This document shows positions 26,078 to 46,211 of a stretch of 64,000 bases of DNA, piece by piece. This DNA is from Haloarcula limicola (lineage in GTDB: Archaea > Halobacteriota > Halobacteria > Halobacteriales > Haloarculaceae). A model generated the notes under the pieces. The model worked only from the letters and a program-made list of their open reading frames with translations. It searched no databases and had not been told where the DNA came from. Each line of letters begins with the position of its first letter. The first letter of the stretch is position 1. The position numbers were made by a program, and so were the translations under genes. Location of the stretch: assembly GCF_010119205.1 (NCBI RefSeq), contig NZ_WRXM01000001.1, forward strand, positions 62,001-126,000, written 5' to 3'.

Positions 26078-26151
26078 AGCCAGGGGTGGGATTTGAACCC
26101 ACGAACTCTCGATTACAAGTCGAGTGCTTGGACCACCCAAGCTCCCCTGGC
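26078..26151 (-). tRNA. tRNA-Thr (anticodon TGT)
   Basis: Read on the minus strand this 74-nt gene has a perfect 7-bp acceptor stem (GCCAGGG/CCCTGGC), a D arm with GCTT/AAGC, an anticodon arm CTCGA-CTTGTAA-TCGAG with anticodon TGT, and a T arm GTGGG-TTCAAAT-CCCAC. The discriminator is T. CCA is not encoded. It decodes ACA/ACG threonine codons. Confidence 0.95.
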
Positions 26152-30780: not shown

Positions 30781-30864
30781 CGGTGGGGCTGGGATTTGAA
30801 CCCAGGAATCCGTGAGGATACCTGCTTTCAAGGCAGGCGCAATAGGCCGCTCTGCCACCCCACC
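30781..30864 (-). tRNA. tRNA-Ser (anticodon TGA)
   Basis: An 84-nt type II tRNA on the minus strand. The acceptor stem GGTGGGG/CCCCACC is perfect, the anticodon arm CCTGC-CTTGAAA-GCAGG gives TGA, a long variable arm follows (TATCCTCACGGATT), and the T arm is CTGGG-TTCAAAT-CCCAG. The discriminator is G, as expected for serine. CCA is not encoded. It reads UCA/UCG codons. Confidence 0.95.
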
Positions 30865-42841: not shown

Positions 42842-42870
42842 TGGACAACTATAAATACTGGAAGTGTCCA
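42842..42870 (+). promoter_or_regulatory. leuA promoter inside an inverted-repeat operator candidate
   Basis: TGGACA (42842-42847) and TGTCCA (42865-42870) are perfect inverted copies separated by 17 nt. The TATA-like ataaatac (42850-42857) lies between them. A dimeric regulator on both arms would cover the TATA box and block TBP. Spacing from the TATA box predicts transcription start near 42880, just before the ATG at 42884. Confidence 0.55.
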
Positions 42871-42883
42871 GATATAGGTGCTT

Positions 42884-44105
42884 ATGTCCAACAACGAGGG
42901 CACGTCGGGATCTCCGGCGGATCGAGTTCTTCCAGGGCACACTGGATTCCACGTCTGAGATAACAGACGCACGGATTTTCGACACCACGCTGCGCGACGG
43001 CGAACAGTCGCCACGCACGTCGTTCAACTACGAGGACAAACGCGAGATAGCCGCTGTACTCGATGAGATGGGCACCCACGTCATCGAGGCCGGGTTCCCC
43101 GTCAACTCCGACGCGGAGTTCGAGGCAGTGCGCGACATCGCGGAGTCCACGAGTGTCACGACGTGCGGACTGGCGCGCGTGGTCGAGAAAGACATCGAGG
43201 CGGCCTTGGATTCGGGTGTGGACATGGTCCACACCTTCGTCTCGACGTCGGACGTACAGTTGCAGGATTCCATGCACGCGACCCGAGAGGAGGCGCTGGA
43301 GTCGGCGGTCGAAGCCGTCGAGCGCATCGCCGAGGCGGGCGTCGAGTGCATGTTCTCGCCGATGGACGCCACTCGGACCGACGAGGAGTTCCTCCTCGAG
43401 GTCATCGAGGCGACCTCGGCGGCGGGCGCGGACTGGATCAACATCCCCGACACGTGTGGGGTCGCCACGCCGCGGCGGTTCTACGACCTCATCGAGATCG
43501 TCGACGGCCACACCGACGCGCGCATCGACGTGCACACGCACGACGACTTCGGGCTGGCCTCGGCCAACGCCATCTCCGGGTTCGAAGCGGGCGCGAGCCA
43601 GGCGCAGGTCTCGGTCAACGGCATCGGGGAGCGGGCCGGTAACGCGGCCTACGAGGAGGTCGTCATGGCGTTAGAGGCGCTGTACGACGTCGAGACGGGC
43701 ATCGATACGACGCGCATTACGGAGCTGTCACGCGTCGTCGAGGAGAAGTCGGACATCCCGGTCCCGGCCAACAAGCCGGTCGTCGGGCGCAACGCCTTCT
43801 CCCACGAGAGCGGCATTCACGCCGCCGGCGTCATCCAGAACGCCGACACCTTCGAACCGGGCGTCATGACGCCCGAGATGGTCGGTGCCGAACGCGAACT
43901 GGTGCTCGGCAAACACACCGGCGCGCACTCGGTGCGCGAGCGGCTGGTCGACGCTGGCTACGCCCCGACCGAGGCCGAGGTCCGTGAAGTGACCCGCCGC
44001 GTCAAGGACTACGGCGCGGAGAAACAGCAGGTCACCATGAGCGAACTCGAACGGTTCGCCACGGAGGTCGGCGTCGACGAGGAGTCTGAGGAGGTCCGGG
44101 CGTAG
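42884..44105 (+). CDS. leuA: 2-isopropylmalate synthase (LeuA), apparent +1 frameshift near the start
   Basis: Condenses acetyl-CoA with 2-oxoisovalerate, the first step of leucine synthesis. RIFDTTLRDGEQSP, DVHTHDDFGLASANAISGFEAGA and NAFSHESGIHAAGV are diagnostic. At about 400 residues it lacks the C-terminal leucine-feedback domain of long LeuA; citramalate synthase is an alternative. The expected leaderless ATG (42884, MSNNEGTSGSPADRV) is one frame off the enzyme body. No ATG/GTG/TTG occurs in the body frame between there and IEFFQGTLDST. Dropping one G near 42916-42920 joins the frames. GTG 42864 is in frame but lies upstream of the predicted transcript. Confidence 0.85.
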
Positions 44106-44200: not shown

Positions 44201-44207
44201 TTTATTA
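44201..44207 (+). promoter_or_regulatory. TATA box of the ilvB leader transcript
   Basis: tttatta stands 27-30 nt before a GTG-ATG pair (44231, 44234). A leaderless transcript starting there would begin with the small leader ORF. The leuA-ilvB gap (44106-44447) contains this promoter, the leader ORF and a hairpin; I see no other gene in it. Confidence 0.55.
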
Positions 44208-44233
44208 CTCACCGCGGACAGAGATTCGACGTG

Positions 44234-44326
44234 ATGACAGCGCGTACTGGCAGTCGGGTCCGTTCGACCGCGACCACCAGCGACGCGCACCTTCTTCGCG
44301 GCGGGCGTATTGTAGGGGCCTTCTAG
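44234..44326 (+). CDS. Putative attenuation leader peptide of ilvB (30 aa)
   Basis: A 30-codon ORF starting MTARTGSRVRSTATT and ending DAHLLRGGRIVGAF. It begins where the transcript is predicted to start and ends 121 nt before ilvB. Near its end come two adjacent Leu codons (CTT CTT, 44291-44296) and Ile-Val (ATT GTA, 44309-44314), all A/T-ending and so rare in this genome. Its stop lies in the loop of a hairpin. This is the layout of a bacterial branched-chain attenuator. Alternative: a chance ORF; its codon use is less GC-biased than neighbouring genes. Confidence 0.5.
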   Translation: MTARTGSRVRSTATTSDAHLLRGGRIVGAF

Positions 44327-44331
44327 CCCCT
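44314..44331 (+). promoter_or_regulatory. Hairpin overlapping the ilvB leader stop codon
   Basis: AGGGGC (44314-44319) and GCCCCT (44326-44331) form a perfect 6-bp stem with loop cttcta, which contains the first bases of the leader's TAG. A ribosome stalled at the Ile-Val codons or the stop would keep it open. A clear T-run does not follow, so classical termination is uncertain. Confidence 0.5.
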
Positions 44332-44447
44332 CACACCTCACTTTCGTCGCCGGCCGTATCGACTATCCACCATACAGCAGAGACGCCAGCTATGCACACA
44401 GCACACACAGCACCGCGGTATCGACCGACAGCGGACGGAGGGACAGC

Positions 44448-46211
44448 ATGAGCGAACGCGCGTCCGTTCCCAAGGAGGAAGCGGACGAACAGGAGACGGA
44501 GAGCGAGGACGCGGCCCCGGTTACGACCGGCGCGCAGTCGGTCGTCCGGGCGCTCGAAAACGCCGGCACGGAGTACGTCTTCGGCGTGCAGGGCGGCGCT
44601 ATCATGCCCGTCTACGACGCGCTGTACGACTCCGACATCAATCACGTGACGATGGCTCACGAGCAAGGGGCCTCGCACGCCGCCGACGCCTACGGCATCG
44701 TCACGGGCGACCCCGGCGTCTGTTTCGCCACGTCCGGGCCGGGCGCGACCAACCTCGTGACCGGCATCGCCGATGCGAACATGGACTCCGATCCGATGAT
44801 CGCATTGACGGGCCAGGTCTCGAAAGAGATGGTCGGCAACGACGCGTTCCAGGAGACCGACACCGTCGGCATCACTCAGCCGGTCACGAAGGAGAGCTAC
44901 TTCGCGAGCAGCCCCGACACCGTCGGCGACAACGTCAGCGAGGCGTTCGCGCTGGCCGACGAGGGCCGACAGGGGCCGACGCTCGTCGACCTCCCGAAGG
45001 ACGTCACGCAGGGCGAGACGGATATCGAACCGAAAGCGGCCGCGACGCCCGACACCTACGAGGTCCAGGAGGAGGCCGACGACGAGGCCGTGCAGGAGGC
45101 CGCAGACGCGTTCGCGGCCGCCGACCGCCCGGTCATCCTGGCCGGCGGCGGCGTCATCAAGGCCAACGCCTCGGCGGCGCTGCGGGAGCTCGCCACGGAG
45201 TACGAGGTCCCGGTCGTCACGACGATGCCCGGCATCGGGAGCTTCCCCGAGGACCACGAGCTCTCCTTAGAGTGGGCCGGGATGCACGGCACCGGCTACG
45301 CCAACCTGGCGATCACGAACACGGACTGCCTGCTGGCCATCGGCACGCGCTTCGACGACCGCCTGACCGGCGGCGTCGACTCCTTCGCGCCCGACGCCGA
45401 CGTCATCCACGTCGACATCGACCCCGCGGAGATCAGCAAGAACATCTACGCGGACTACCCGCTCATCGGCGACGCGCGGAAGGTCCTGCGCCAGTTGTTC
45501 GACGCCATGCCTCGTGCGCCCGAGGCCGACGCGTGGCGCGAGCAGTGTCAGGACTGGAAAGACGAGTACCCGATGGAGTACGAGATGCCCGACGACGAAC
45601 CGCTGAAGCCGCAGTACGTCGTCGAGACGTTCTCCGACCTGACGCCCGACGACACCATCGTCTGTACCGGCGTCGGCCAACACCAGATGTGGGCCTCGCA
45701 GTTCTGGGAGTTCACCAAGCCCCGGACGTGGGTGTCTTCCCACGGCCTCGGGACGATGGGCTACGGCGTCCCCGCGGCCATCGGCGCGAAACTGGCCGCC
45801 CCCGACCAGGAAGTCGTCTGCTTCGACGGCGACGGCTCGTTCCTGATGACGGTGCAGGGCATCTCGGTCGCGGTCCGAGAGAACCTCGACATCACCTACG
45901 TCATCCTCAACAACGAGGCGGTCGGGATGGTCCGCCAGTGGCAGGACGGCTTCTACGAGGGCCGTCGGATGGCCTCGGAGTACCCGTGGATCCCGGCCTT
46001 CGACAAGCTCGCCGAAGCCTTCGGCGCTCGCGGATTCCGACTGGAGGCCGAGGAGGACGTCGAGGAGACGATTCAGGCGGCCCGCGACTACGACGGGCCG
46101 AGCGTCATCGACGCGCACATCGACCCCGGGGAGAACGTCTTCCCGATGGTCCCGAGCGGCGGTGACAACGGCCTGTTCGCACTGCAGGAAGACCATCTGG
46201 AGATGCTCTAA
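44448..46211 (+). CDS. ilvB: Acetolactate synthase large subunit
   Basis: A 587-residue thiamine-diphosphate enzyme that makes acetolactate (valine/leucine) and acetohydroxybutyrate (isoleucine). The catalytic Glu lies in VTMAHEQGASHAADAYG. The cofactor motif is FDGDGSFLMTVQG ... ITYVILNN, and FAD-domain segments such as TRFDDRLTGGVDSFAP are present. The first ~28 residues are an acidic extension. A Shine-Dalgarno-like ggagg precedes the ATG by about 8 nt. Two bases separate it from ilvN. The long leader suggests attenuation-like control. Confidence 0.96.
   Translation: MSERASVPKEEADEQETESEDAAPVTTGAQSVVRALENAGTEYVFGVQGGAIMPVYDALYDSDINHVTMAHEQGASHAADAYGIVTGDPGVCFATSGPGATNLVTGIADANMDSDPMIALTGQVSKEMVGNDAFQETDTVGITQPVTKESYFASSPDTVGDNVSEAFALADEGRQGPTLVDLPKDVTQGETDIEPKAAATPDTYEVQEEADDEAVQEAADAFAAADRPVILAGGGVIKANASAALRELATEYEVPVVTTMPGIGSFPEDHELSLEWAGMHGTGYANLAITNTDCLLAIGTRFDDRLTGGVDSFAPDADVIHVDIDPAEISKNIYADYPLIGDARKVLRQLFDAMPRAPEADAWREQCQDWKDEYPMEYEMPDDEPLKPQYVVETFSDLTPDDTIVCTGVGQHQMWASQFWEFTKPRTWVSSHGLGTMGYGVPAAIGAKLAAPDQEVVCFDGDGSFLMTVQGISVAVRENLDITYVILNNEAVGMVRQWQDGFYEGRRMASEYPWIPAFDKLAEAFGARGFRLEAEEDVEETIQAARDYDGPSVIDAHIDPGENVFPMVPSGGDNGLFALQEDHLEML

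Follow-up and report, generated by a model that had tools for sequence, protein, structure and literature searches.

A candidate amino-acid-sensing leader peptide upstream of ilvB and valS in haloarchaea

Results

The region upstream of ilvB in Haloarcula limicola

The DNA analysed here is a stretch of 64,000 nucleotides from Haloarcula limicola (NZ_WRXM01000001.1, positions 62,001 to 126,000; hereafter the window). In it the predicted gene for the large subunit of acetolactate synthase, ilvB, is preceded by a short open reading frame (ORF1), a small hairpin and a second short frame (ORF2). The features, in window positions, are:

44201..44207, plus strand: TATA box TTTATTA, promoter of the ilvB leader (from the sequence; CACAGAACGTTTATTA is conserved in the genus)
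44231..44326, plus strand: ORF1, leader peptide MTARTGSRVRSTATTSDAHLLRGGRIVGAF, from GTG 44231 or ATG 44234 to TAG 44324-44326
44291..44296, plus strand: Leu Leu codons CTT CTT of ORF1, possible additional sensor codons; the pair is not conserved
44309..44314, plus strand: putative sensor codons ATT (Ile, 44309-44311) and GTA (Val, 44312-44314), abutting the hairpin
44314..44331, plus strand: hairpin AGGGGC-CTTCTA-GCCCCT, 6 bp, which holds the ORF1 stop codon
44331..44345, plus strand: C/A/T-rich stretch without G, 3′ of the hairpin
44392..44451, plus strand: ORF2, MHTAHTAPRYRPTADGGTA, with an ATGA overlap with the ilvB start at 44448-44451
44448..46211, plus strand: ilvB, predicted acetolactate synthase large subunit (ORF of 587 aa), the putatively regulated gene

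The function of ilvB was named from the annotation, from homologues among the ThDP enzymes and from its position before ilvN/ilvC-like genes; ilvB orthologues within the genus are 87-97% identical. The original prediction, an attenuator-like leader peptide before ilvB, named a TATA box, a GTG-ATG pair opening an ORF of 30 codons, and a stop codon in the loop of a perfect hairpin with ilvB 121 nt further on, all of which are present. The 30 codons are counted from ATG 44234-44236, with GTG 44231-44233 in the same frame, and the 121 nt from the ORF1 stop to the ilvB start at 44448. Of the stop codon, the TA is part of the hairpin loop and the G opens the 3′ arm. From the TATA box we infer that the ilvB mRNA starts at ORF1; a TATA-like box 29-35 nt 5′ of the leader start is recognised in 45 of the 74 ilvB leaders compared below.

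CTT CTT and ATT GTA had been singled out as A/T-ending codons in a genome that prefers G/C-ending ones, and their rarity is borne out in five genes of the window, where GTA makes up 2.8% of Val codons, CTT 0.9% of Leu codons and ATT 5.6% of Ile codons; the leader is thus built with rare codons. The core GTATTGTAGGGGCNNNNTAGCCCC occurs a single time in the 3.9-Mb genome, even if up to three mismatches are allowed, and is absent from all 100 shuffled versions of the window. The window also contains two ordinary tRNA genes (26078-26151 and 30781-30864, both on the minus strand).

Conservation of the leader within the genus

We aligned 31 upstream regions, 30 from the genus (sample of 32 genomes) and one from a relative. 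The promoter is conserved, the leader frame is retained in all 31 ilvB leaders, and the only large indel in ORF1 comprises six bases. The core GTATTGTAGGGGCNNNNTAGCCCC is identical in 30 leaders, the remaining one having ATC for ATT. One relative (L033) has lost the ATG and still has the in-frame GTG. The Leu codon pair varies across the alignment, with CTT CTT, ATT CTC and other combinations. When diversity was broken down by codon position, no third-position bias emerged in either ORF1 or ORF2, so the ORF1 peptide as such is not conserved: frame, end codons and hairpin are retained, and the rest of the peptide drifts. A drifting peptide with a fixed frame and fixed end codons is the usual look of attenuator leader peptides. 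The expected conservation of the peptide end DAHLLRGG was not found; what is conserved is Ile-Val-Gly-Ala-X-stop together with the hairpin.

These data also bear on the idea that the ORF1 product is a small protein acting in trans, for which the conservation of the reading frame over the whole order speaks. We consider it very improbable, since third-position bias is absent, the N-terminal part is very different between genera, and changes in the hairpin arms that turn Gly-Ala into Gly-Pro (see below) show that the hairpin rather than the peptide is retained.

Distribution upstream of ilvB and valS

For the order-wide comparison 80 genus representatives were used. Of their 80 ilvB upstream regions, 74 contain GTA immediately before a GC hairpin that includes a stop codon in the same frame. 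Variants of this module precede ilvB in G143 and G191 and the second ilvB copy of G123; among the same representatives no module was detected upstream of ilvB in G153, G155 and G351. Together with the 31 of 31 leaders of the genus alignment, this bears out the proposed conservation of ORF frame and hairpin in related genomes.

An exact 19-nt motif, GTAGGGGCNNNNTAGCCCC, gave 67 matches spread over 57 genomes, with one or two apiece in 45, and a reversed control pattern gave one. All 67 are located upstream of either ilvB (39) or valS (28), the gene for valyl-tRNA synthetase, and none elsewhere. A scan of GTDB representatives with ATHGTAGGGGCNNNNTAGCCCC found at least 120 stretches; among the matches listed, 78 of 80 are from haloarchaea. 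The archaeal-type valS carries the module in 31 of 58 genera, among them our own genome, where the valS leader is GTAGTAGGGGTCTCCACGCCCCACTAA with the stop codon 3′ of the hairpin; in the other 27 genera it lacks the module. Many haloarchaea (G034, G040, G051, G078 and others; L244-L267) have a second type of valyl-tRNA synthetase, approximately 42% identical, in place of the usual one, and G065 and G275 carry both types. A module before the second-type valS was considered and rejected: a loose pattern matched 3 of 24 genes, which is the background rate of the search, and the motif was found in none.

The codon preceding GTA differs according to the gene. It encodes Ile in 73 of the 74 ilvB leaders and never (0 of 31) in valS leaders, which have a Phe, Val, Arg or Pro codon instead. 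Likewise, Ile accounts for 136 of 592 residues in the eight positions before GTA in ilvB leaders and for 0 of 248 in valS leaders. The constancy of GTA is in part due to construction, because GTA belonged to the search pattern. The product of ilvB serves the synthesis of Val, Ile and Leu, and that of valS serves Val only. As to the proposed sensor codons, the comparison of the 74 ilvB leaders upholds the Ile-Val pair beside the hairpin, and the Leu-Leu pair is variable; 69 of the 74 have at least two Leu or Ile codons, the adjoining Ile counted, in the stretch of 12 codons that leads up to GTA.

ATG codons 30-105 nt 5′ of GTA fall almost exclusively into the leader frame: 91 against 5 and 1 in the other two frames for the 74 ilvB leaders, and 31 against 2 and 1 for the valS leaders. 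The distance from leader start to repeat varies by whole codons (15-33), and the N-terminal part of ORF1 differs greatly from genus to genus. A near-fixed inverted repeat common to two genes in most genomes could also be the target, at the DNA or RNA level, of a regulatory protein of ilvB and valS, with the ORF being incidental. This is improbable in view of the frame data, as the repeat stays in frame with the upstream ATG at distances that change in whole codons, the in-frame stop is kept despite changes of loop and arms, and the preceding codon varies by gene in a way that matches the amino acid. That ORF and hairpin are both due to chance has a negligible probability: G+C-rich DNA often has long open frames, but conservation, gene specificity and frame statistics speak against it, and the comparison across genomes already refutes it.

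Structure of the hairpin and its surroundings

Covariation was analysed in the leaders with the stop codon at +12 from GTA, using two 5-nt arms and shuffling the 3′ arms. The arms pair fully in 71 of 79 leaders, compared to a mean of 63.9 and a maximum of 69 in 10,000 shuffles. Where the stop is at +12, the arms also occur as GGCCC/GGGCC and GGGCC/GGCCC, among others; where it is at +9, they occur as GGGGT/ACCCC and GGGGCC/GGCCCC. An in-frame stop is found at +9 or +12 in 104 of 108 leaders, though the loops span 3-9 nt. The arm changes convert Gly-Ala to Gly-Pro, so it is the hairpin that is kept, not the peptide. The stem is just 4-6 bp long across the leaders.

The consensus fold of 30 genus leaders contains solely this hairpin and one helix inside ORF1, and no mutually exclusive (antiterminator) helix. 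The hairpin is likewise retained in a consensus fold of the part of the leader 3′ of the middle of ORF1. The helix within ORF1 is weaker and conserved (window 44240-44290, GCGC.G.CTGG with CCAG.C.GCGC). No intrinsic terminator, that is, a hairpin plus U run, was detected between leader and ilvB in the window. TTTT within 40 nt 3′ of the hairpin occurs in about a quarter of ilvB leaders and about a tenth of valS leaders. The longest run without G within 45 nt has a mean length of 15.5 nt in the 74 ilvB leaders compared to 6.2 nt in an upstream control. In Rfam 15 the leader has no match at the gathering thresholds and nothing beyond chance at E values up to 10, and the leaders of relatives are likewise without a match.

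ORF2 and the downstream start codon

An ATG is located 55-75 nt past the hairpin in 54 of 74 ilvB leaders (11.7 expected from shuffles) and in 27 of 31 valS leaders (5.2 expected); in the window the ORF2 start lies 61 nt past the stem. The distance from hairpin to gene, unlike this spacing, ranges from less than 100 to more than 400 nt. In 61 of 72 ilvB leaders the first ATG 3′ of the hairpin is in the frame that ends in ATGA. The resulting ORF2 has 3-44 codons and overlaps ilvB by NTGA in 60 leaders. In valS leaders without ORF2, the ATG at 55-75 nt is often the valS start itself. Ile, Leu and Val together make up 1.4% of the ORF2 residues, compared to 10.4% and 6.7% when this DNA is read in its other frames; ORF2 is also poor in other hydrophobic residues, and because these are generally rare, the scarcity of the three is only compatible with use under starvation. 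For ATGA pairs from Haloferax and E. coli, strict coupling has been reported in 13 of the 14 that were tested (PMC6728339).

Related leaders upstream of other genes

In most of 29 haloarchaeal genomes pheS is preceded by a leader ORF ending in GFGFFFA or similar, which looks like a Phe leader. In our own genome (L402, C2:1105331; comparison set L388-L415) it reads MASESHRAGVARQPDRRPGFGFFFAA. The pheS leader lies 3′ of a TATA-like AACGCTTTT and approximately 700 nt 5′ of the pheS domain match; TTCGGCTTCTTCTTC is conserved, and GGGGTTC could pair with a GGACTCC located 3′ of it. Small ORFs with WRW or a similar run of residues precede several trpS genes (L447, L448, L417-L431). That of Haloferax mediterranei (L447, plasmid pHME505) is MVSTSHANCWRWHAFREVDSIAV, 23 aa long and located inside an 11-bp inverted repeat, its Trp codons lying between the arms GTCCACTTCCC and GGGAAGTGGAC. 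Taken together, the Phe-rich leaders of pheS and the Trp leaders of trpS point to a general system. Upstream of ileS (29 genomes) and leuS (10 genomes) no leader ORF rich in Ile or Leu was found.

For leuA, the search for a Leu-rich leader, judged by residue count, yielded inconsistent matches and the candidate was rejected. The start region of the gene in the window is organised differently:

42851-42966: leuA start region, with TATA box (42851-42858), leaderless ATG (42884), GTT CTT (42926-42931) and stop codon (42956-42958)

The leaderless ATG opens MSNNEGTSGSPADRVLPGHTGFHV, followed by the stop codon, and LeuA is encoded in the +1 frame, in which no start codon is present 3′ of the likely transcription start. 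Of 91 named haloarchaeal loci, 90 have this ATG frame leading into CGA GTT CTT C. LeuA lies in the +1 frame in every one of the 90, and 81 of them are without ATG, GTG or TTG in the LeuA frame there. This arrangement agrees with programmed +1 frameshifting, perhaps at a hungry Leu codon. An RNA motif named "leuA-Halobacteria" is said to exist; no match was found, and nothing here rests on it. For HVO_1510 a start-codon problem has been noted before, with slippage from an out-of-frame ATG as a suggestion and translation only without leucine as a speculation (PMC8305020). The leuA of Natronomonas pharaonis has been called interrupted, yet the organism is no leucine auxotroph (PMC3402447).

Discussion

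A predicted amino-acid-sensing switch

The comparison of genomes reveals a leader frame, codon specificity, a covarying hairpin with the stop codon inside it, a fixed spacing to the next start codon and an ATGA frame. These features probably form a cis-acting switch in which a leader peptide senses amino acids and the state of the hairpin sets the use of the downstream message. The sensor part of this switch is well supported by the sequence comparisons. For the stalling, the direction of control and the output step we infer the following course.

The mRNA would start at ORF1, which would be translated without a 5′ UTR. With charged Ile-tRNA and Val-tRNA available, the ribosome would reach the stop codon and depart, and the hairpin would close; since it closes once the ribosome has terminated and left, a closed hairpin should signal that amino acids are present. 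At low charging the ribosome would stall at ATT or GTA. A ribosome with GTA or ATT in its A site would reach approximately 9-12 nt beyond the start of GTA, so that it should cover the 5′ arm and keep the hairpin open. The output would most likely be translation from the start codon 55-75 nt past the hairpin, which for ilvB would be that of ORF2 and for valS that of valS itself or of a small ORF. Translation of ORF2 would then be handed to ilvB via termination and reinitiation at the ATGA.

The main rival departs from this course solely at the last step: with the same sensor, the closed hairpin would promote premature termination of transcription over the 117 nt ahead of ilvB, either intrinsically or through FttA/aCPSF1. 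The pyrimidine-rich RNA without G that follows the hairpin would suit such a mechanism, bacterial ilvB leaders work in this mode (PMC10272879), and archaeal FttA terminates RNA that is not protected by ribosomes (PMC8116511; PMC11616081). FttA prefers U-rich RNA (PMC11616081), though, and the window leader is without a terminator-like site, four-T runs are scarce in its relatives and an alternative helix is absent. Termination also has no need of the conserved ATG spacing or of the ORF2 frame. We therefore regard it as rather unlikely. Initiation of translation is somewhat more likely as the output, because conservation extends to the distance between hairpin and next start codon as well as to the frame of ORF2; a difficulty for it is that the hairpin would have to act on a start codon 60-70 nt away. 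Counted against the switch as a whole are the absence of the module from valS in 27 of 58 genera and from all second-type valS, the short stem and the lack of third-position bias.

Comparison with known leader systems

Control by leader peptides through tRNA charging is a textbook mechanism of bacteria. The bacterial ilv attenuators (E. coli ilvL/ivbL; Corynebacterium ilvBNC uORF, ilvB-II motif; PMC10272879, PMC11857589) resemble the haloarchaeal leader in that a short ORF precedes ilvB, branched-chain codons overlap an RNA hairpin, the frame is kept while lengths change by whole codons, and tRNA charging is presumed to be sensed. The haloarchaeal leader differs in having a leaderless ORF, Ile-Val codons that abut a single small hairpin holding the stop codon, a counterpart before valS and an ORF2 with ATGA overlap. 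A further difference is that no terminator or antiterminator was found in it, whereas an intrinsic terminator, U run included, belongs to the Corynebacterium ilvB motif, and bacterial ilvB leaders use terminator and antiterminator (PMC10272879). The leaders thus share with attenuators the cognate codons (Ile-Val for ilvB, Val without Ile for valS, Phe for pheS, Trp for trpS); in the ilvB leader an intrinsic terminator and an antiterminator helix are missing, and by these defining traits it is no classical attenuator, although its mode of action should be similar. The original prediction of an attenuator-like leader before ilvB is supported by the conservation and by the valS module with its exchanged Ile codon, and the part that fell is classical attenuation of transcription.

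The overlap of the ORF2 stop with the ilvB start makes the two an ATGA pair. In the coupled pairs described earlier (PMC6728339) both partners are genes, whereas here the first partner is an ORF of 3-44 codons of free sequence. For Haloferax volcanii, uORFs located in long 5′ UTRs have been tabulated with mapped starts; one upstream of a trpS has 23 aa and one upstream of pheS has 26 aa (PMC4983044, Table 2). These lengths agree with the Trp and Phe leaders described here; they were not read there as amino-acid sensors, and ilvB and valS are absent from that table. Among bacteria, E. coli pheST has a Phe-rich leader peptide before an aminoacyl-tRNA synthetase gene. It and haloarchaeal pheS both have leaders with cognate codons; the hairpins differ, and no terminator is shown in haloarchaea. 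T-boxes sense tRNA charging before aminoacyl-tRNA synthetase and amino-acid genes, and neither they nor other Rfam 15 families match the leader by covariance model.

Meaning for haloarchaeal biology

The finding is real and larger than first noted, with the module occurring order-wide before ilvB and valS and related leaders at pheS and trpS. More tentatively, at somewhat less than an even chance, the leaderless ilvB, valS, pheS and trpS leader peptides with their cognate codons and hairpin, acting on translation initiation rather than through an intrinsic terminator, may together with a leucine-dependent +1 frameshift at the start of leuA, a gene of the same cluster, belong to a ribosome-based sensing system used throughout haloarchaea; archaea would then own a separate branch of attenuation. 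In the literature under open licence we found no report of leader-peptide attenuation in archaea; as it covers open-licence papers only, this is not proof of novelty.

The putative control is found at a biosynthesis gene and at synthetase genes alike, and it lacks the terminator by which the bacterial form is defined. Should it be real, it would account for the long leaders before haloarchaeal pheS and trpS and open the sensing of amino acids by archaeal ribosomes to direct tests in hosts amenable to genetics. Archaea probably detect a lack of amino acids through stalled ribosomes, in a manner resembling that of bacteria.
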